From Gemmatimonadota bacterium (lineage in GTDB: Bacteria > Gemmatimonadota > Gemmatimonadetes > Gemmatimonadales > Gemmatimonadaceae): a stretch of 43,283 nucleotides of DNA. The notes below the pieces were generated by a model, which was given only the letters and a program-made list of their open reading frames with translations, had not been told where the DNA came from and searched no databases. The DNA lies in contig VHBP01000019.1 of NCBI GenBank assembly GCA_016871915.1, forward strand, positions 1 to 43,283. Reading direction: 5' to 3'. Positions within the stretch are counted from its first letter, which is position 1; each line of letters opens with the position of its first letter. This document shows, in pieces, positions 8,479 to 17,424 of the stretch. The position numbers and the translations under genes are program-made.

Positions 8479-8970
8479 CTACGGGGTGAGGCGAGCGAGC
8501 GTCGCGACGGCCATGCAGGCGATCCCCTCGCCGCGGCCGATGAACCCCATCCCCTCGTTGGTCTTCCCCTTGATCATCACGTCGGCGGCGGGGATCCCGA
8601 GCGCCTCCCCCAGCCGCTCCCGGATCGCCGGTCGATGCGCCCCGACCTTCGGCGTCTCCGCGATCACCGTGAGATCGCACTGCACCGGGGCCCACCCCGC
8701 CGCGCGCACGCGCGCCACGGCCAGACGGAGCATCTCGATGCTGTCGCGGTCCTTGTTCTCGGCGGCCGTATCGGGGAACATCTCGCCGATGTCGCCGAGC
8801 CCCGCCGCGCCCAGCAGGGCGTCGGTGAGCGCATGGCAGGCCGGATCGGCATCGCTATGCCCGGTACACCGCACCGTCGCCGGGATCAGCACGCCGCCCA
8901 GCAAGACGCCATGCCCCGCCACGAAGCGGTGCGAGTCGTAGCCGATTCCGACGCGCATGGGAGCTGACAT
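8479..8970 (-). CDS. ispF: 2-C-methyl-D-erythritol 2,4-cyclodiphosphate synthase IspF
   Basis: Fifth step of the non-mevalonate (MEP) isoprenoid pathway, cyclising CDP-methylerythritol 2-phosphate with loss of CMP. Metal ligands Asp12, His14 (GYDSHRF) and His46 (DADPACHAL) are present, as is the C-terminal KGKTNEGMGFIGRGEGI region. Length 163 aa fits the family (about 159). Two ATGs are possible: 8970, used here and 8 nt after the mqnC stop, or 8958 (MRVGIGYDSH), which begins right at the fold; neither has a clear Shine-Dalgarno. Placement beside menaquinone genes is sensible because menaquinone needs an isoprenoid tail. Confidence 0.97.
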   Translation of the reverse strand: MSAPMRVGIGYDSHRFVAGHGVLLGGVLIPATVRCTGHSDADPACHALTDALLGAAGLGDIGEMFPDTAAENKDRDSIEMLRLAVARVRAAGWAPVQCDLTVIAETPKVGAHRPAIRERLGEALGIPAADVMIKGKTNEGMGFIGRGEGIACMAVATLARLTP

Positions 8971-8978
8971 CGGGGCGC

Positions 8979-10025
8979 TCAGGCGGCCACCGTCTCGGGG
9001 GTCACCGGGATCAACGAGTAGTCCTGGAACCGCCGCCGCGGCGTGAACCCCGCCTCACTAATCAGCCGCTCCATCTCGTCGGTCGTCGTGCGATAGGTCG
9101 TGTTCGCCGCCGAGACCACATTTTCCTCGAGCATCAGCGAGCCGAAGTCGTTGCACCCGTAGTGCAGCGCGGTCTGGCCGACCTTCATCCCCATCGTCAC
9201 CCAGCTCGCCTGGATGTTCGGGATCGAGTCGAGCACGGTGCGCGCGAAGGCCGTCGTGCGGAGGTACTCCACCGCATCGGTCTTCGGCATGTGGCTCATC
9301 TCCGGCGTGTTCTCCGGCTGGAGCGGCCAGCAGATGAAGGCGGTGAAGCCCTTGGTGCGGTCCTGTACCGCCTTCAGCCGCAGTAGATGCTCGATGCGCT
9401 CCGCCATCGTCTCGCCGATCCCGTACATCATGGTGCATGAGGTCCTGAGCCCCTCGCCATGCGCGATCTCCATCACCTCGAGCCAGCGGTCCGCACCCGC
9501 CTTCTTCTTGGCGACGTTGTCGCGCACGCGCTGCACGAGGATCTCACCGCCCCCGCCCGGGATGGAATCGAGCCCTGCCTTCACCAACTCCTGGATCACG
9601 GTCCGCGCATCCATGCGGTAGAGCGTCGCCCAGAAGTCGACCTCGCTCGGCGAGAAGCCGTGTACGTGGATCGGATGATTCCGCTTGATGTACCTGAGGA
9701 GCTCGAGGTACCACTCGAACGGGATGTACGGGTTGTGCCCGCCTTGGATCAGGATCTGCACCCCGCCCAACGCCTTCACCTCATCGATCTTCGCGCCGAT
9801 CTCCTCGTAGCTGAGGGTCCACCCCTCGCCATCCTTCGGGCGACGGTAGAAGGCGCAGAAGCCACAGTCAGCGACACAGACGTTGGTATAGTTGATGTTC
9901 CGATCGACGATGTACGTGACGACGGGCTCGGGATGGAGCCGACGACGCACCGCATCGGCGTCGGCCCCGAGCTCGAGGAGCGGGGCCTTCGTGTAGTAGT
10001 CGAGGAGATCGGATTCGTAGGACAT
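8979..10025 (-). CDS. mqnC: Cyclic dehypoxanthine futalosine synthase MqnC
   Basis: Radical-SAM enzyme of the futalosine menaquinone pathway that cyclises dehypoxanthine futalosine. The [4Fe-4S] ligands are canonical CX3CX2C: Cys50, Cys54 and Cys57 within NYTNVCVADCGFCAFYR, a sequence typical of MqnC. GGVQILIQGG, the HGFSPSE segment and SIPGGGGEI further match the family. Length 348 aa is usual. A 48-nt gap separates it from mqnA, while ispF follows after 8 nt. It is the normal counterpart to the odd cluster motif in the nearby MqnE. Confidence 0.96.
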   Translation of the reverse strand: MSYESDLLDYYTKAPLLELGADADAVRRRLHPEPVVTYIVDRNINYTNVCVADCGFCAFYRRPKDGEGWTLSYEEIGAKIDEVKALGGVQILIQGGHNPYIPFEWYLELLRYIKRNHPIHVHGFSPSEVDFWATLYRMDARTVIQELVKAGLDSIPGGGGEILVQRVRDNVAKKKAGADRWLEVMEIAHGEGLRTSCTMMYGIGETMAERIEHLLRLKAVQDRTKGFTAFICWPLQPENTPEMSHMPKTDAVEYLRTTAFARTVLDSIPNIQASWVTMGMKVGQTALHYGCNDFGSLMLEENVVSAANTTYRTTTDEMERLISEAGFTPRRRFQDYSLIPVTPETVAA

Positions 10026-10073
10026 GCGCAGGATCGCTGAGATGGACGGTGTCGCGGGTGACGCTCTCGAATA

Positions 10074-10934
10074 CTACCCCGCCCGCCGCGTGGCAGGCAG
10101 GAACGCCAGTCGGCCCTTCGGGACCTTCCCCGCGAGCTCGAGCCGGCGGAAGAACTCGGTGAGCCCCTCGAGGTCGCGCAGGCCAAGCCGCCAATCGAGG
10201 CCGTCGAAGTACCGGCGGCACTCGGCGACCGGGACCCCGGTCACCTCGGCGGCCTGCGTGGAGAGGAGGTCGAGATGCCGGACGCCCCACTCGCGTGAAC
10301 GGATGAGCGAGGCATGGACCGCCAAGGCCTGCTCCACCGGCGTGGTCCGCTGCGCCACCCAGACGGCGAAGACGAAGGGGAGCCCCGTCCACTCCCGCCA
10401 GACCGCGCCGAGGTCGTAGACGTGCGGGTAAGCCCGACCGTGGGCCTCGGCGAGCGGATGGCCCGGGCTCTGCAGCATGAGCGCGGCATCCCCGATCACG
10501 AGGCGGGCCACGCAGGGGTCGCCACCGTCACGCGCGATGGCATCGGCCTCCGCATCGCCCGGGACGAAGACCGGCTCCGACTTCCAGACATGCGTGAAGA
10601 GCAGCTCGAGCAGATGCACCGAGGTCATCGAGCTGCGGCTCACGAGCACGCGCTGGCCGGAGAGCGACTCCGCCGGCACGCTCGAGAAGAGGAGCACGCT
10701 CCGCACCGGTCCATCGCAGGAGATCGCGAGATCGGGGAGGAGGAGATAGCGCTCGGAGTCGCGAGCATACTCCACCGCCGAGACCACGGAGACGTCGAGC
10801 GTCCCCTTGGCCATGCGCCGATTCAGCGCCGTCGGGACCCCATCGACCAGCGTCGCATCCAAGGGCACCAGCCCACGGTCGATCGCCCCGTAGACGGGAT
10901 AGGTGTTGATGTAGGGGATGCGGCCGACGCGCAT
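10074..10934 (-). CDS. mqnA: Chorismate dehydratase MqnA
   Basis: First step of the futalosine pathway: removes water from chorismate to give 3-[(1-carboxyvinyl)oxy]benzoate. It has the MqnA/MqnD periplasmic-binding-protein-like fold, recognised from GRIPYINTYPV at the N-terminus, DVSVVSAVEYARD, the SRSSMTSVHLLELL segment and LVIGDAAL. Length 286 aa is typical. The ATG at 10934 shares one base with the mqnE stop (TGATG); a GTG directly before it is possible and would add one residue. Coupling to mqnE is logical, since MqnE uses the MqnA product. Confidence 0.95.
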   Translation of the reverse strand: MRVGRIPYINTYPVYGAIDRGLVPLDATLVDGVPTALNRRMAKGTLDVSVVSAVEYARDSERYLLLPDLAISCDGPVRSVLLFSSVPAESLSGQRVLVSRSSMTSVHLLELLFTHVWKSEPVFVPGDAEADAIARDGGDPCVARLVIGDAALMLQSPGHPLAEAHGRAYPHVYDLGAVWREWTGLPFVFAVWVAQRTTPVEQALAVHASLIRSREWGVRHLDLLSTQAAEVTGVPVAECRRYFDGLDWRLGLRDLEGLTEFFRRLELAGKVPKGRLAFLPATRRAG

Positions 10935-12103
10935 CACGCGGCCTGGTCCGCCGGCTCGTCGAAGCGCCGGATGATCCGATAGAAGCTGTCCCGCTCCGCG
11001 GGGATCTTCCCCGCCCCGCGGATCAGCGCGAGGATCTCGTCGAGCGACATCGCCTGGCGCGTCTGCGCCCCGACCGCGTGATAGATCTTCTCGCGGACCA
11101 CCGTCCCCTCGAGGTCATTGACGCCGTAGTGCAGCCCGAGCTGCGAGAGCGCCGGCGTGACCATGATCCAGTGACTCTTCACATGGTCGAAGTTGTCGAG
11201 GAAGAGCCGTCCGATCGCGAGCATCTTGAGATCCTCGACCCCCGACGTGGCGGTGCCGCGACGGCCGAGCTTCTCCCCGAGGACGTTGTCGTCGGGGTGA
11301 TAGGCGAGCGGGATAAAGGCGAGGAAGCCCCCGGTCTCGTCCTGGAGCGAGCGCAGCATCGCCATGTGCTCGATGCGGTCCTCGTAGGTCTCGATATGCC
11401 CGTAGAGGAGCGTGCAGTTCGAGCGGATTCCCAATCCATGCGCCGTCCGGTGGACGCCGATGTAGTCGGCCGCCCCCAGCTTCTTGTTGGCGATCTCCTC
11501 CCGCACCGCGGCGCTGAAGGTCTCGGCCCCGCCGCCAGGGAGCGTGTCGAGCCCCGCCTCCTTGAGCGCGCTCAGGACCTCGGCCCAGCTCATCTTCTCG
11601 ATCCGCGCGATGTGCGCGATCTCGACCGCCGTCAGCGCCTTGATGTGCACGTGGGGCATCTCGGTCTTCAGCGCGCGGAAGATCTCTTGGTAATAGGCGA
11701 GCCCCGCCTTCATGTCGAGCCCACCGACGATATGAAACTCGCGCGTCATCCCACCGTTGCCCGTCCGAGCCTCCTGCAGCACCTCATCGAGGGTGTAGCG
11801 ATACGCCCCCTCCTCCTTCGGCAACCGGGCATAGCCGCAGAAGACGCAGGTGGTGCGCAGGGTGCAGATGTTGGTCGGGTTGATGTGCTGGTTCGCGGCG
11901 AAGGTCACCACGTCGCCATGCTTGGCGTGGTTCACCGCGTCCGCAAGCAGGCCGATCCCCGTGAGATCCGTCGAGCGAAAGAGGGCCAACCCGTCGGCAG
12001 TCGAGAGCCGTTCCCCTGCCGCGATCTTCTCGGCGACCCGTCGCACGACGGGATCCGAGAGGCGCGTGAGGGGGAGCTGGAGACCCGTCACCACCGCGCT
12101 CAT
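10934..12103 (-). CDS. mqnE: Aminodeoxyfutalosine synthase MqnE, atypical cluster motif
   Basis: Radical-SAM enzyme joining the MqnA product to the adenosyl group of SAM to form aminodeoxyfutalosine. Family features include the FAANQHINPTNIC lead-in, the REFHIVGGLDMK region, LDTLPGGGAETF, the YGHIET segment and LGLHYGVNDLEGTVV. The iron-sulfur ligands are unusual: Cys80, Cys86 and Cys89 are spaced CX5CX2C (CTLRTTCVFC), whereas MqnE is expected to have CX3CX2C. The reading frame is clean through the motif, so this is not a simple frameshift. The ATG at 12103 follows GGGTGAGG; a GTG one codon earlier is possible. It lies 4 nt after fabF. Confidence 0.93.
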   Translation of the reverse strand: MSAVVTGLQLPLTRLSDPVVRRVAEKIAAGERLSTADGLALFRSTDLTGIGLLADAVNHAKHGDVVTFAANQHINPTNICTLRTTCVFCGYARLPKEEGAYRYTLDEVLQEARTGNGGMTREFHIVGGLDMKAGLAYYQEIFRALKTEMPHVHIKALTAVEIAHIARIEKMSWAEVLSALKEAGLDTLPGGGAETFSAAVREEIANKKLGAADYIGVHRTAHGLGIRSNCTLLYGHIETYEDRIEHMAMLRSLQDETGGFLAFIPLAYHPDDNVLGEKLGRRGTATSGVEDLKMLAIGRLFLDNFDHVKSHWIMVTPALSQLGLHYGVNDLEGTVVREKIYHAVGAQTRQAMSLDEILALIRGAGKIPAERDSFYRIIRRFDEPADQAA

Positions 12104-12107
12104 CACC

Positions 12108-13361
12108 TCACCCGATCAGGCGGCGCAGCGCGATGCTGGCGTTGTGGCCGCCGAAGCCAGAGGAATTCGAGAGCACCGCGTGTACCTCACGACGCACCGG
12201 CGTGTTCGCCGTGCAGTCGAGGTCGCACTCGGGATCTGGGGTCTGGAGGTTGATCGTCGGCGGGATGATCCCGTGGCGGATCGCGAGGGCGGAGAAGATC
12301 GACTCGACCGCCCCGGCGGCGCCGAGCATGTGCCCCGTGCTCGACTTGGTCGAGCTGACGTTCAGTCCCGTGGCGTGCGGTCCGAAGACCGCCTTGATGG
12401 CGCGGATCTCGTTCGAGTCGTTGAGCGGCGTCGAGGTGCCGTGCGCGTTCACATATTGCACATCGGACGGCGCGAGCCCCGCATCCTCGAGGGCCCGACG
12501 CATCGCGCGCTGGAGACCGGCGTGATCCTCCGGCTGCCCGGTGAGATGGTAGGCGTCCCCCGTGGCACCGTAGCCCACGACCTCGCAGTAGATCTGCGCG
12601 CCGCGCGCTCGCGCATGCTCCAGCTCCTCGAGGATCACGACCCCTGCACCCTCGCCGAGCACGAATCCGTCACGCGTCTGGTCGAAGGGGCGTGAGGCCG
12701 TCTCCGGTGACTCGTTGCGCGTGGAGAGCGCCTGCATGTTCGCGAAGCCGCCGATCGCCATCGGCGAGACCGCCGCCTCCGCCCCACCGGCGATCATGAA
12801 GTCGGCGTCGCCGTAGGCGATCAACCGAAAGGCATCCCCGATCGCATGCGCACTGGAGGCGCAGGCCGACTGGGTCGCGTAGTTGGGGCCCTTCGCCTGG
12901 AAGCGCATCGAAACCACACCAGCCGCGATGTCGCCGATGAACATCGGGACGAAGAAGGGAGAGATCCGGCCGGGCCCGTCCTGCATCAGCACCGTGTGCT
13001 GCGCCTCGAAGGTCTCGATCCCGCCGATCCCCGAGCCGATGATCACGCCGAGGCGATCCGGGTCGTACCCGGTCCCCTCTCCGAGCCCGGCATCGCGCAT
13101 GGCCTGCACCGCGGCGGCCATCGCGTACTGCGTGTAGCGGTCGGCGCGCTTGGCCTCCTTGCGGTCCATGTACGCGCCGATGTCGAACCCCTTCACCTCA
13201 TGCGCGAACCGGACCTTGAAGCCCGACGCGTCGAACCGGGTGATCGGCCCACCCCCGGAGCGGCCCTCGAGTAGCGCCGCCCACGTGGAGGCCACGTCGT
13301 TCCCGACGGAGGTCAGACAACCGGCCCCCGTGAGGACCACCCGGCGACGCAGACCCGCCAT
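12108..13361 (-). CDS. fabF: 3-oxoacyl-ACP synthase II FabF
   Basis: Elongating condensing enzyme of type II fatty-acid synthesis, adding malonyl-ACP units. The catalytic triad is Cys167 (TQSACASSAHA), His307 (VNAHGTSTPLND) and His344 (KSSTGHMLGAAGAVE), the C-H-H set of KAS I/II. Length 417 aa and the RRVVLTGAG start match FabF rather than FabB. The start is one base after the acpP stop (TGAGATG), giving the common acpP-fabF pair. A GHN segment near the C-terminus (SSGFGGHNASI) is also diagnostic. Confidence 0.98.
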   Translation of the reverse strand: MAGLRRRVVLTGAGCLTSVGNDVASTWAALLEGRSGGGPITRFDASGFKVRFAHEVKGFDIGAYMDRKEAKRADRYTQYAMAAAVQAMRDAGLGEGTGYDPDRLGVIIGSGIGGIETFEAQHTVLMQDGPGRISPFFVPMFIGDIAAGVVSMRFQAKGPNYATQSACASSAHAIGDAFRLIAYGDADFMIAGGAEAAVSPMAIGGFANMQALSTRNESPETASRPFDQTRDGFVLGEGAGVVILEELEHARARGAQIYCEVVGYGATGDAYHLTGQPEDHAGLQRAMRRALEDAGLAPSDVQYVNAHGTSTPLNDSNEIRAIKAVFGPHATGLNVSSTKSSTGHMLGAAGAVESIFSALAIRHGIIPPTINLQTPDPECDLDCTANTPVRREVHAVLSNSSGFGGHNASIALRRLIG

Positions 13362-13362
13362 C

Positions 13363-13602
13363 TCAGCCGGCGAGCTTGGCGTTCAGGTAGCCGATGGCGT
13401 CACCGACCGTCTTCAACTTCTCGGCATCCTCGTCGGGGATGTCGATGTTGAACTCCTTCTCGAACTCCATGACGAGCTCGACGATGTCGAGCGAGTCGGC
13501 CCCGAGATCGTCGATGAAGCTAGCGCCGTCGGTCAGCTTCTCACGCTCGACCCCGAGCTCCTTCTCGATGATGTCCTTCACCTTCGCAGTATGATCAGCC
13601 AT
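13363..13602 (-). CDS. acpP: Acyl carrier protein AcpP
   Basis: Carries acyl chains on a 4'-phosphopantetheine arm attached to Ser37 in the [11 protein letters not shown] motif. A 79-residue acidic four-helix protein, normal for AcpP. The ATG at 13602 is preceded by TTGGAG; a longer in-frame extension upstream would cross the probable promoter and leader hairpin and adds no recognisable sequence. It lies between fabG (110-bp gap, with its own promoter) and fabF (1-nt gap), the classical fabG-acpP-fabF order. Confidence 0.98.
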
Positions 13603-13634
13603 GCGTCGAGAACTCCAAGAGGGTGGAACCACGA

Positions 13635-13662
13635 GGGCCGCCGGAAGTCGCTCCGACGGCCC
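13635..13662 (-). promoter_or_regulatory. Leader hairpin upstream of acpP
   Basis: On the minus strand GGGCCGTCGG and CCGGCGGCCC pair over 10 bp around an 8-nt loop (AGCGACTT). One pair is G-U on the minus-strand RNA and would be an A-C mismatch on the other strand, which favours function in the acpP-sense transcript. No T run follows (TCGTGG), so it is not a standard terminator of fabG. It begins 3 nt after the -10 box, so it could form at the extreme 5' end of acpP mRNA or in read-through from fabG. Confidence 0.5.
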
Positions 13663-13665
13663 AGA

Positions 13666-13671
13666 AATATA
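13666..13671 (-). promoter_or_regulatory. Candidate -10 element of acpP promoter
   Basis: TATATT (5 of 6 matches to TATAAT) lies in the AT-rich island AAATCGTTATATTTC, conspicuous in such GC-rich DNA. No convincing -35 box lies 16-18 nt upstream. Start of transcription would be near 13659, about 57 nt before the acpP ATG. The 110-bp gap between fabG and acpP, in a cluster otherwise packed at 0-50 bp, also argues for a promoter here. Confidence 0.5.
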
Positions 13672-13712
13672 ACGATTTGACAGGGGGCAGCGGCACGGAA
13701 TGCGCGCCCGGT

Positions 13713-14453
13713 TCACATCGCCAGACCACCATCCACGGCGAGGACCTGCCCGGTGATGTACGCCGCATGCTCCGAGGCGAGGAAGGCCACCACGCCGGCC
13801 ACATCCTGGGCCGCCCCGAACCGCTCCAGCGAGATCTGTGCCGCGAGCGCCTCGACCGCCTGCGGGGTCATGGCATCGGTCATATCGCTGGTGATGAACC
13901 CCGGCGCGACCACGTTGCAGAGGATGTTCCGGCTAGCCAGCTCCTTCGCCACCGACTTGCTGAGGCCGATCATCCCCGCCTTGCTGGCCGCATAGTTCGC
14001 CTGCCCTTTGTTCCCGAAGATCCCCACCACCGAGGCGATGTTGATGATCCGCCCCCAGCGCCGCTTCATCATCCCGCGCTGGGCGGCCCGGATCGCCACG
14101 AAGGCCGACCGTAGGTTCGTATCGAGCACCGCGTCCCAATCCTCTTCCTTCATCCGGAGCATGAGCTTGTCACGCGTGATCCCCGCATTGTTCACGAGGA
14201 TATCCAACGACCCGAAGGCGTCCTCCACCGTCTGCACGAGCATCGTCACCGAGGCGGGATCGACCACATCACAGGCGAAGCCGCGGGCCTCCCCCAATTC
14301 CTCCGCCACCTGTTCCGCCTTCGCCAGATCGCGCCCCACCACGGCGACCTTCGCCCCGGCGTCGACCAGCGTCTTCGCGATCGTGCGCCCGATCCCGCGC
14401 GTGGAGCCGGTGACGAGCGCGACCTTGCCAGTGAGATCGATAGGGAGTGCCAT
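13713..14453 (-). CDS. fabG: 3-oxoacyl-ACP reductase FabG
   Basis: NADPH-dependent short-chain dehydrogenase reducing beta-ketoacyl-ACP. The Rossmann dinucleotide motif TGSTRGIG is at 15-22, NNAG at 88-91, and the catalytic Ser141, Tyr154 and Lys158 (YAASK) are in place. Length 246 aa is standard. The ATG at 14453 opens [16 protein letters not shown]; the frame remains open 73 codons upstream, into fabD, but without FabG-like sequence. No good Shine-Dalgarno is visible. A 53-nt gap follows fabD. Confidence 0.97.
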
Positions 14454-14506
14454 GAACCGTCCGGTGGAGGGTGAGCACGACGGGGCGCGGGACGCCCCGA
14501 CTGGAA

Positions 14507-15433
14507 TCAGAGCTGCAGGAGCGCCTCGACCTCGGCCGCGGTGCCGCAGGTCAGATACTGACACCCCGGGGCGAGACGCTTCACGAGGCCGGTCAGCACC
14601 GCCCCAGGGCCCATCTCGACGAAGGAGACCGCGGGATGTGTGACCGCGATCGCCCGCACCTGCTCGACCCACCGGACCGGTGAGGTGAGCTGCCGGACGA
14701 GGAGTTGGCGCGCGGTCGCGACATCGGTCACCGCTTCGGTGGTCACATTGCTCCAGACCGGGAAGCGCGGGGCGTGCCAGGCCGCCGCATCGATCGCCGA
14801 CGCGAGTCCCGCCTCGGCGGGCTGCATCAGCGGACTGTGGAAGGCCCCGCTCACCGGGAGCCGCAGTGCCCGCTTGGCCCCCGCCGCCTTGGCCCCCTCC
14901 ATCGCCGCCTCCACCGCCGCGACCTCACCCGAGATCACGATCTGCTCGTCGGCATTGAAGTTCGCCGGCACGCAGATCCCATGCGCGGAGGCCGCCTGAC
15001 AGATCTCGCCGATCGGCGTCGTGAGGGTCCCGAGGATCGCCGCCATCGCGCCAGGACGTTCGACCCCGGTGCGGTACATGAGCTCACCGCGCGTGCGGAC
15101 GAGCCGCACCGCATCGTCGAGCCCCAGTGATCCCGCCGCCTGATACGCCGTGAACTCGCCAAGCGAGTGCCCCGCCGCCCCGACCACCCGACCCGCGAGA
15201 TGCCCCTGCACCGTGCTCCACACCGCCGCGCCATGCGCCAGCAGCGCCGGTTGCGCATTGTGGGTGAGCGTCAACTCGTCGGCCGGTCCGTCAAAGCAGA
15301 GGGCGCTGAGCGACGTGCCGAGGGCGGCGTCGACCGCGGAGAAGGTCGCACGTGCCGCCGGATAGGTCTCGACGAGATCCTTGGCCATCCCGGGCTTCTG
15401 CGAGCCCTGACCGGGAAAGAGGAGGAAGAACAT
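14507..15433 (-). CDS. fabD: Malonyl-CoA:ACP transacylase FabD
   Basis: Loads malonyl groups from CoA onto ACP. Signature motifs: FPGQGSQ at 6-12, the nucleophile Ser90 in GHSLGEF, the substrate-binding Arg in the RTRGELM segment, and His199 in GAFHSPLM. The 308 residues match E. coli FabD (309). The ATG lies 3 nt after the fabH stop. It feeds FabH and FabF encoded on either side. Confidence 0.97.
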   Translation of the reverse strand: MFFLLFPGQGSQKPGMAKDLVETYPAARATFSAVDAALGTSLSALCFDGPADELTLTHNAQPALLAHGAAVWSTVQGHLAGRVVGAAGHSLGEFTAYQAAGSLGLDDAVRLVRTRGELMYRTGVERPGAMAAILGTLTTPIGEICQAASAHGICVPANFNADEQIVISGEVAAVEAAMEGAKAAGAKRALRLPVSGAFHSPLMQPAEAGLASAIDAAAWHAPRFPVWSNVTTEAVTDVATARQLLVRQLTSPVRWVEQVRAIAVTHPAVSFVEMGPGAVLTGLVKRLAPGCQYLTCGTAAEVEALLQL

Positions 15434-15436
15434 CGG

Positions 15437-16426
15437 CTAGAACCGGACGATCATCGAACCCCAGGTGAAGCCCGCGCCAAAGGCGACGAACATCACCGTC
15501 GAGCCCTCCTTCACCAGCCCCTGCGTCTGCGCCTCGCTCAGCGCGATCGGAATCGAGGCGGCCGAGGTGTTCCCGTAGCGGTCGACGTTCACGAACACCT
15601 TGTCCATCGGGATGCTCGCGTGCTTCGCGGTCGCCTCGATGATGCGGATATTCGCCTGATGCGGGATGAGGAGATCGACGTCGGTCGAGGAGAGCTTCGC
15701 CCCATCGAGCGCCCGATCCGCCGCGTCCGCCATCGACCGGACCGCATTCTTGAAGACCTCGCGCCCCGCCATCGTGATGAAGTGCGATCCCTCCGCGAGG
15801 ATCTCGTTCGTCATCGGGCAGGCGCCAGCGCCCTTGGGCCGCTGGAGGAGATCGGCCAGGGTGCCGTCGGAGCGCATGTACGCCGAGAGGATCCCGCGCT
15901 GCTTGGTGCTGCGCCGGATGATCGTCGCGCCCGCACCATCGCCGAAGAGGACGCAGGTGTTGCGATCCTTCCAGTTGATGATGCGCGAGAGGACCTCGCC
16001 GCCGATCACGAGGATCGTCTCGTAGTTCCCGGTGGCGATCAATCCTTCCGCGACCTGACAGCTATAGAGCCACCCCGAACAGGCGGCATCGAGATCGAAC
16101 GCCGCCGCACGCGAGGCCCCGAGCGCCGCCTGGACCTCGACCGCCGTCGCCGGCAGGAGCCGATCGGGGCTCGCGGTGCCGAGGATGATGAGATCGAGCT
16201 CGGCGGCCGTCACGCCGGCCATCGCCATCGCCTGGCGCGCCGCCTCGGTGCAGAGAAAGGTGAGGGTCTCCCCCTCGCCAGCGATGTAGCGCTGCCCGAT
16301 CCCGGTGCGCTCGCGGATCCACTCGTCGGAGGTCTCCACACCGATCGACGCGAAGTCGTCGTTGGTGAAGACCCGCTTCGGCACCGCATATGCGGTCGCC
16401 GCGAGCATCGCGACGGGGCGCTTCAT
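15437..16426 (-). CDS. fabH: 3-oxoacyl-ACP synthase III FabH
   Basis: Initiates fatty-acid synthesis by condensing an acyl-CoA starter with malonyl-ACP. The Cys-His-Asn triad is complete: Cys116 (LDAACSGWLYS), His256 (IPHQANIRI) and Asn286 (YGNTSAASIP). The ERTGIGQRYI segment near residue 40 is also characteristic. Length 329 aa is normal. The ATG overlaps the plsX stop by 4 nt (ATGA), the usual plsX-fabH arrangement. Starter preference (acetyl versus branched) cannot be read from the sequence. Confidence 0.97.
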   Translation of the reverse strand: MKRPVAMLAATAYAVPKRVFTNDDFASIGVETSDEWIRERTGIGQRYIAGEGETLTFLCTEAARQAMAMAGVTAAELDLIILGTASPDRLLPATAVEVQAALGASRAAAFDLDAACSGWLYSCQVAEGLIATGNYETILVIGGEVLSRIINWKDRNTCVLFGDGAGATIIRRSTKQRGILSAYMRSDGTLADLLQRPKGAGACPMTNEILAEGSHFITMAGREVFKNAVRSMADAADRALDGAKLSSTDVDLLIPHQANIRIIEATAKHASIPMDKVFVNVDRYGNTSAASIPIALSEAQTQGLVKEGSTVMFVAFGAGFTWGSMIVRF

Positions 16427-17424
16427 GCGCCGAGCTGTTCGCCGACGTGTCGGCTCATCTCGGACTCGAAGGCCCGGAGCCCAGCCAGGATCCCGTTCTT
16501 GATCGCCTCGGGGCTCGACTTCCCATGACAGATGATGCTCACCCCCTTCACGCCGAGGAGCGGAGCGCCGCCGTACTTGGCGTAGTCGAGCGACTGCATC
16601 GCCATCCCGAACTGCTCCTTGGTGACGCCGACCTGCTTGAGCAGACCATACATCATCGGGGCGACCGATTCGTAGAACTTGAGGAGGACGTTGCCGGTGA
16701 AACCGTCGCAGACGACGACATCGATCGGGCCACGATCACAGGCCCCCATCGGGATATCACGCCCTTCGACGTTGCCGATGAAGTGCAGGCCGGCACCGAG
16801 AAGCGCCTGATGCGCCTCCTTCACGGCGGTATTCCCCTTCTCCGCCTCCTCTCCGATCGAGAGCAGGCCGACCGCGGGCGTCGGGCGACCGAGGATGTCC
16901 TTGGCGAAGACATGCCCGAGGCGGGCGAACTGCACGAGCTCGGCGGAGGCACAATCGACGTTGGCTCCGGCGTCGAGCATCACGATCGGCTGCCGCGCGG
17001 TCGGGAGGACCGTCGCGATCGCGGGGCGCGAGAGCCCCTCGTGGAGCCGCAGGATGAAGGTCGAGGCCGCCATCTGGGCCCCGGTGTTCCCCGCCGAGAC
17101 GAAGGCATCCGACTGCCCCTCGGCTTGGAGCCGGAGTCCGACCGCCGTCGAGGAGTTGGGCTTGCCGCGGATGGCGACGGAGGGCTTATCCGTCATCTCG
17201 ATCGCCTCTGGGGCGTCGATGATGGCGAACTGGGAGACGGCCTCGCGCAGGAGGGGCGTGGCGCCGACGAGCTGGCGGCTCAGTTCCTCACGGATGACGG
17301 CCTCGCGGCCGACGAGCTGCAGCTCATGCGACGGCGCGAGCTCCTGCGCGGCGAGCAGCGCGGCGGCGACGGGCGCTTCGGGGGCATGATCGCCCCCCAT
17401 GACGTCCAGCGCGATCCGCGCCAT
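16423..17424 (-). CDS. plsX: Phosphate acyltransferase PlsX
   Basis: Converts acyl-ACP to acyl-phosphate, the donor used by PlsY for the first acylation of glycerol-3-phosphate. The N-terminal DVMGGDHAPEAPV is the PlsX signature (usually DAMGGDHAP), followed by a Rossmann-like core with DAGANVDC and the FTGNVLLKFYE segment. Length 333 aa is within the family range. It starts 3 nt after rpmF, giving the widespread order DUF177-rpmF-plsX-fabH. Confidence 0.96.
   Translation of the reverse strand: MARIALDVMGGDHAPEAPVAAALLAAQELAPSHELQLVGREAVIREELSRQLVGATPLLREAVSQFAIIDAPEAIEMTDKPSVAIRGKPNSSTAVGLRLQAEGQSDAFVSAGNTGAQMAASTFILRLHEGLSRPAIATVLPTARQPIVMLDAGANVDCASAELVQFARLGHVFAKDILGRPTPAVGLLSIGEEAEKGNTAVKEAHQALLGAGLHFIGNVEGRDIPMGACDRGPIDVVVCDGFTGNVLLKFYESVAPMMYGLLKQVGVTKEQFGMAMQSLDYAKYGGAPLLGVKGVSIICHGKSSPEAIKNGILAGLRAFESEMSRHVGEQLGA

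Follow-up and report, generated by a model that had tools for sequence, protein, structure and literature searches.

A CX5CX2C cluster motif in the predicted aminofutalosine synthase MqnE of a Gemmatimonadota bacterium

The mqnE gene of a Gemmatimonadota bacterium (family Gemmatimonadaceae; assembly GCA_016871915.1), located in the 43,283-nucleotide stretch of contig VHBP01000019.1 that was analyzed here (the window), very probably encodes a working aminofutalosine synthase, the sole copy in its genome, with a cluster loop two residues longer than usual that reads CX5CX2C. This assignment draws on sequence comparison and a predicted structure. CX3CX2C is the usual signature for recognizing radical SAM enzymes, and it is absent from the window MqnE. 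As judged from its fixation through the order and its occurrence in other phyla, the CX5CX2C spacing is no error but a stable natural variant.

Motif, family identity and predicted fold

The mqnE gene (10934–12106, minus strand) is a frame open over 390 amino acids from a GTG start, and its product is assigned as a radical SAM aminofutalosine (aminodeoxyfutalosine) synthase from TIGR03700, structures 6xi9/6xig and a model. Codon reading of the minus strand from 11866 to 11837 (TGC ACC CTG CGC ACC ACC TGC GTC TTC TGC) gives the cluster motif C-TLRTT-C-VF-C in the context NQHINPTNI-C-TLRTT-C-VF-C-GYARLP. The first-pass annotation, which had placed a CX5CX2C motif of MqnE at 11837–11866, is borne out by these codons and by the open 390-residue frame, and its numbering of the cysteines as 80, 86 and 89 is correct when counted from the ATG beside the GTG start; with GTG as residue 1 they are residues 81, 87 and 90. 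It had further described the neighboring MqnC as CX3CX2C, as we also find, and had seen no second MqnE in the window, which is true and extends to the whole genome: a genome-wide search of the assembly (98.75% complete, 120 contigs) returned a single mqnE, with MqnC as the second and only other match.

The window protein passes the MqnE profile TIGR03700 narrowly, at 435.9 bits against a cut-off of 434.55 (1.3 bits over), six other CX5 members clearing it by larger margins (461.7–512.8 bits), and it scores 56.7 bits on the radical SAM superfamily profile PF04055 (gathering cut-off 29.5). It falls below the cut-offs of the MqnC, CofH and HmdB profiles. Thus, with MqnC (TIGR03699) it shares the CofH-type radical SAM family and the operon, but it reaches 345.2 bits where 428.1 are needed, and MqnC has CX3CX2C. 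With HcgA/HmdB (TIGR03957, [Fe]-hydrogenase cofactor biosynthesis) it shares the CX5CX2C spacing reported for that enzyme and a distant radical SAM kinship (E 4.6e-10), but it reaches 39.2 bits where 320.9 are required, and so is not the same enzyme. The nearest solved structure by sequence is Pedobacter heparinus MqnE (6xi9/6xig, E 2.4e-84), in the alignment to which the sole gap within the motif is a two-residue insertion between cysteines 1 and 2.

The same clean two-column insertion separates 52 CX5 rows from 68 CX3 rows in a wider alignment. Among columns with a conservation of 93% or more in the 68 CX3 MqnE rows, a set that covers the PGGG-E segment as well as all three cysteines, all but four carry the same residue at more than 90% in both CX5 groups (37 and 15 rows); the four departures are mild changes. 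Columns 124, 210, 219, 274 and 277 hold residues common to both CX5 groups and rarer in CX3, a comparison that ignores kinship and from which we claim no coupling. The order-wide clade of the window also shows substitutions of its own where MqnE is otherwise conserved (His312 for Tyr/Phe, Ser321 for Ala and Leu158 for Phe), so that some change of properties is possible. The dN/dS of mqnE against six relatives is 0.06–0.22 (NG86), indicating purifying selection. Full-length sequence, fold, near-invariant residues and pathway neighbors are thus those of MqnE as known from TIGR03700 and the P. heparinus structures, from which the window protein differs in its CX5CX2C in place of CX3CX2C, in a short clade-specific insertion near residue 281 and in a few substitutions of its clade. 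The suggestion in the first-pass annotation that the enzyme tolerates a two-residue insertion agrees well with this conservation of the rest of the protein.

An AlphaFold2 model of the window MqnE (pLDDT 85.2, pTM 0.87; about 80 over cluster loop residues 81–90) superimposes on 6xi9_A with Z 44.2 and an rmsd of 2.5 Å over 358 aligned residues, the prediction containing no cluster; the next family by fold after MqnE in this model comparison is HydE, with Z 28.7. We propose that two residues were added between cysteines 1 and 2 of the cluster loop, which follows the first barrel strand, and that these would bulge out of the loop, lengthening the stretch between the first two cluster ligands. Cys81, Cys87 and Cys90 would ligate three irons, with SAM binding the fourth. 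In known MqnE the 5'-deoxyadenosyl radical is added to the enol ether of 3-[(1-carboxyvinyl)oxy]benzoate, according to the part of the source available to us (PMC5352715), and the radical formed by the window enzyme would add to the same substrate.

Operon and futalosine pathway

The start of mqnE lies one base after a gene that we take from its sequence to be fabF-like (beta-ketoacyl-ACP synthase; 12108–13361, minus strand), and its end overlaps by 4 bases with mqnA (chorismate dehydratase family; 10074–10937, minus strand; PF02621, E 2.8e-66), which is followed by mqnC (cyclic dehypoxanthinyl futalosine synthase with an ordinary CX3CX2C; 8979–10025, minus strand; TIGR03699, 448.6 bits, cut-off 428.1). 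The MqnD candidate is another PF02621 protein encoded elsewhere in the genome, and its gene overlaps a futalosine-hydrolase-like gene that scores 90.5 bits, below the cut-off of 124.7. MenD was not found in the genome, the assembly of which is incomplete; the search was permissive, with 14 of 14 controls positive, and its silence here is therefore informative.

This order recurs. The fabF gene stands upstream of mqnE in 52 of the 60 CX5 loci listed for the phylum, a list that leaves the window's own genome uncounted and from which the locus L009 is absent, and mqnA or mqnC follows mqnE in 59 of the 60; several exceptions to the fabF-mqnE-mqnA/mqnC order are contig ends. In the Krumholzibacteriota CX5 loci, too, mqnC adjoins mqnE, and among the CX3 loci of the gene-order comparison no fabF was seen beside mqnE. 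As a separate observation, within the region 8479–17424 (minus strand) the mqnE-mqnA-mqnC genes come immediately downstream of a cluster for fatty-acid synthesis, whose genes we presume to be plsX, fabH, fabD, fabG and fabF, and upstream of an ispF-like gene; since the gaps are mostly short, the genes for menaquinone and for fatty acids may share a transcript. Pairing of fabF with mqnE is seen again among the CX5 loci of the phylum.

These surroundings bear on whether the window protein might be a radical SAM paralogue that catalyzes a new reaction, aminofutalosine being made in some other way. The clade-specific substitutions and the slender TIGR03700 margin would fit such a protein, but it is the sole MqnE of its genome, mqnA and mqnC adjoin it, the residues conserved in MqnE are retained, and MqnD-type and futalosine-hydrolase-like genes are present, so that we regard a paralogue as very unlikely and keep to the assignment as a working MqnE.

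Spread within and beyond the phylum

A DNA pattern for NxC-X5-C-X-F-C-x-[FY] was scanned on 298 genomes of the phylum, with counts taken from the per-genome table. The CX5 signature is found in 166 of the 298, with a reversed-pattern control giving one match among the matches listed; on these sequence counts the spacing is far beyond chance. Within the window's own order 156 of 172 genomes carry it, and of the 16 others 11 lack any CofH-family match at E ≤ 1e-30 and the remaining 5 show nothing beyond weak matches of MqnC or partial grade. As these 16 have no match of MqnE grade, every own-order genome that has one also has the CX5 signature. Outside the order, CX5 occurs in 10 genomes of the same class (families f4 and f9, and one of f7), and CX3CX2C MqnE is found in families f8 and f10 of that class and in the more distant f11. 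The MqnC proteins beside these genes have CX3 spacing, with one exception in which the first cysteine is altered.

Several details of this survey deserve separate mention. The exceptional MqnC-like protein, from one genome (L061, G005:C140:33049–34056), reads NIR-ISR-C-RF-C, with Arg for the first cluster cysteine, and this could be a sequence error. One single-contig genome of 5.5 Mb (G198) shows the CX5 DNA signature with only a weak protein match (1.4e-39); its mqnE is perhaps frameshifted by long-read errors, or a decaying gene. Several CX5 genes were flagged with one TGA, and selenocysteine through an in-frame TGA was considered and rejected, because the TGA falls at query position 383, the gene end (L033; other flagged rows end at 382/383, just before it), and is an ordinary stop. 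In families f5 and f6 and most of f7, of the same class, most genomes are without a match of MqnE grade, which suggests that the futalosine pathway was lost or that another quinone route is used. If the window's order is taken as Gemmatimonadales, this absence of MqnE from most other families of the class agrees with a genome survey which, in the portion accessible to us, has Gemmatimonadales preferring the futalosine pathway and SG8-23 the classical one (PMC9426454).

Through an error of sequencing or assembly, or through decay of the gene, two surplus codons could in principle have entered the loop, the window coming from a 120-contig assembly, and the first-pass annotation had itself named an indel error as what would overturn its claim. 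However, the same spacing, written in other codons and in part with other residues, recurs in 156 of the 172 genomes of the order and outside the phylum, and the low dN/dS speaks against error and decay alike; the comparative data already refute this explanation, to which we attach a negligible probability. The loop had alternatively been called lineage-specific. This is upheld in that the insertion is fixed through the order, yet other phyla have CX5 too and families f8, f10 and f11 keep CX3.

For the spread beyond the phylum, one genome per species was scanned for 84,980 species with a pattern in which the second residue of the loop may not be L, I, V, M or F; loops of the Leu type outside the phylum were consequently checked only in three sampled phyla and 14 Bacteroidota loci. 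The scan returned 38 stretches, 8 of them chance and 30 encoding MqnE: 27 from Acidobacteriota, one from Krumholzibacteriota, one from another bacterium of the phylum of Krumholzibacteriota and one from a Binatia MAG. A trait of a single phylum, which we had considered, is rejected by the CX5 MqnE of Acidobacteriota and Krumholzibacteriota. Many of the acidobacterial records are Thermoanaerobaculia, with the loop C[VI]YTY[ND]C; the Krumholzibacteriota loop is CVNHGSC and that of the second member of its phylum CVYAKSC. The loops outside the phylum, mostly CVYTY[ND]C, thus differ in composition from those of the window's clade.

How common CX5 is in these phyla was gauged with a context pattern, which needs ACN and NTN codons and Asn before Thr-Asn and so misses MqnE with Ser or Glu variants; spacings were read by eye, with confirmation by alignment for the fetched loci. 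CX5 was seen in 3 of 106 context-pattern genomes of Acidobacteriota (297 sampled), 3 of 31 of Krumholzibacteriota (80 sampled) and 1 of 48 of the phylum of the Binatia MAG (247 sampled), where not all matches are MqnE, since genes resembling MqnC or CofH and a small number of chance sites are among them. CX5 is the minority form in the other phyla sampled. A Bacteroidota draw gave 14 of 61 genomes with MqnE over the cut-off, all 14 of them CX3. The gene of the Binatia MAG (L094, G301:C399:648–1721), the sole CX5 among the 247 genomes, lies on a contig of 15 kb with a loop, CVYTYNC, of the Thermoanaerobaculia type, and is likely due to mis-binning or gene transfer.

Origins and meaning of the longer loop

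For the trees, fragments, low-scoring rows and the majority of MqnC rows were removed from a set of 217, which left 169 rows (165 distinct); of these 165, 126 and then 86 were used once near-duplicates had been taken out. In the 86-row tree without the motif columns the CX5 proteins form two groups, one joining the window's clade with three Krumholzibacteriota (support 95/90) and one made of the acidobacterial CX5 proteins (100/100), which join Bacteroidota CX3 proteins at 100/91. On these sequences the loop would have been gained either once or on two occasions, by the common ancestor of Krumholzibacteriota, the window's order and some of its sister families, and by Thermoanaerobaculia, and been retained from then on. 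We give about an even chance to convergence, that is, at least two independent gains, one by Thermoanaerobaculia and one by the window's clade together with Krumholzibacteriota, and this is compatible with a working MqnE. Besides the two tree groups and the placement of the acidobacterial one with Bacteroidota CX3 proteins, it is favored by the finding that 0% of 200 bootstrap trees put CX5 on one side of a branch and by the unlike inserted residues (LR[NKT]T and YTY[ND]). On the other hand, a tree constrained to one clade of CX5 proteins is not rejected by the AU test (p-AU 0.517) and is 1.2 log units better, and a single origin with later losses or transfer fits equally.

The first-pass annotation had allowed that the motif might prove common in MqnE and already described. 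It is indeed common in some lineages, but we found no description of CX5CX2C in MqnE in the full-text literature, a search with most subscription papers outside its scope and thus not proof of absence. In the sections of the papers available to us, HcgA is credited with a 'unique' CX5CX2C motif (PMC10100467, PMC3087415), HmdB is given CX5CX2C too (PMC4389238), and both a [4Fe-4S] cluster and the conversion of SAM to 5'-deoxyadenosine are described for HcgA with this motif (PMC10100467); as far as these sections go, HcgA is a precedent for a CX5CX2C cluster in MqnE. It is possible, though we think it rather unlikely, that the longer loop was favored by selection two or more times as a functional adaptation, in which reshaped surroundings of cluster and SAM would alter redox potential, oxygen tolerance or the reductase partner, making these enzymes a distinct mechanistic subclass. 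If such an adaptation were true, CX5CX2C would not be unique to HcgA, contrary to the wording in the literature portions cited. An enzyme of primary metabolism in any case has CX5CX2C as its fixed state throughout one bacterial order and in parts of other phyla, which calls for caution in annotating radical SAM enzymes by motif alone, and the natural CX3/CX5 pairs of MqnE, together with the solved CX3 structure, offer material for testing the effect of loop length on the cluster.
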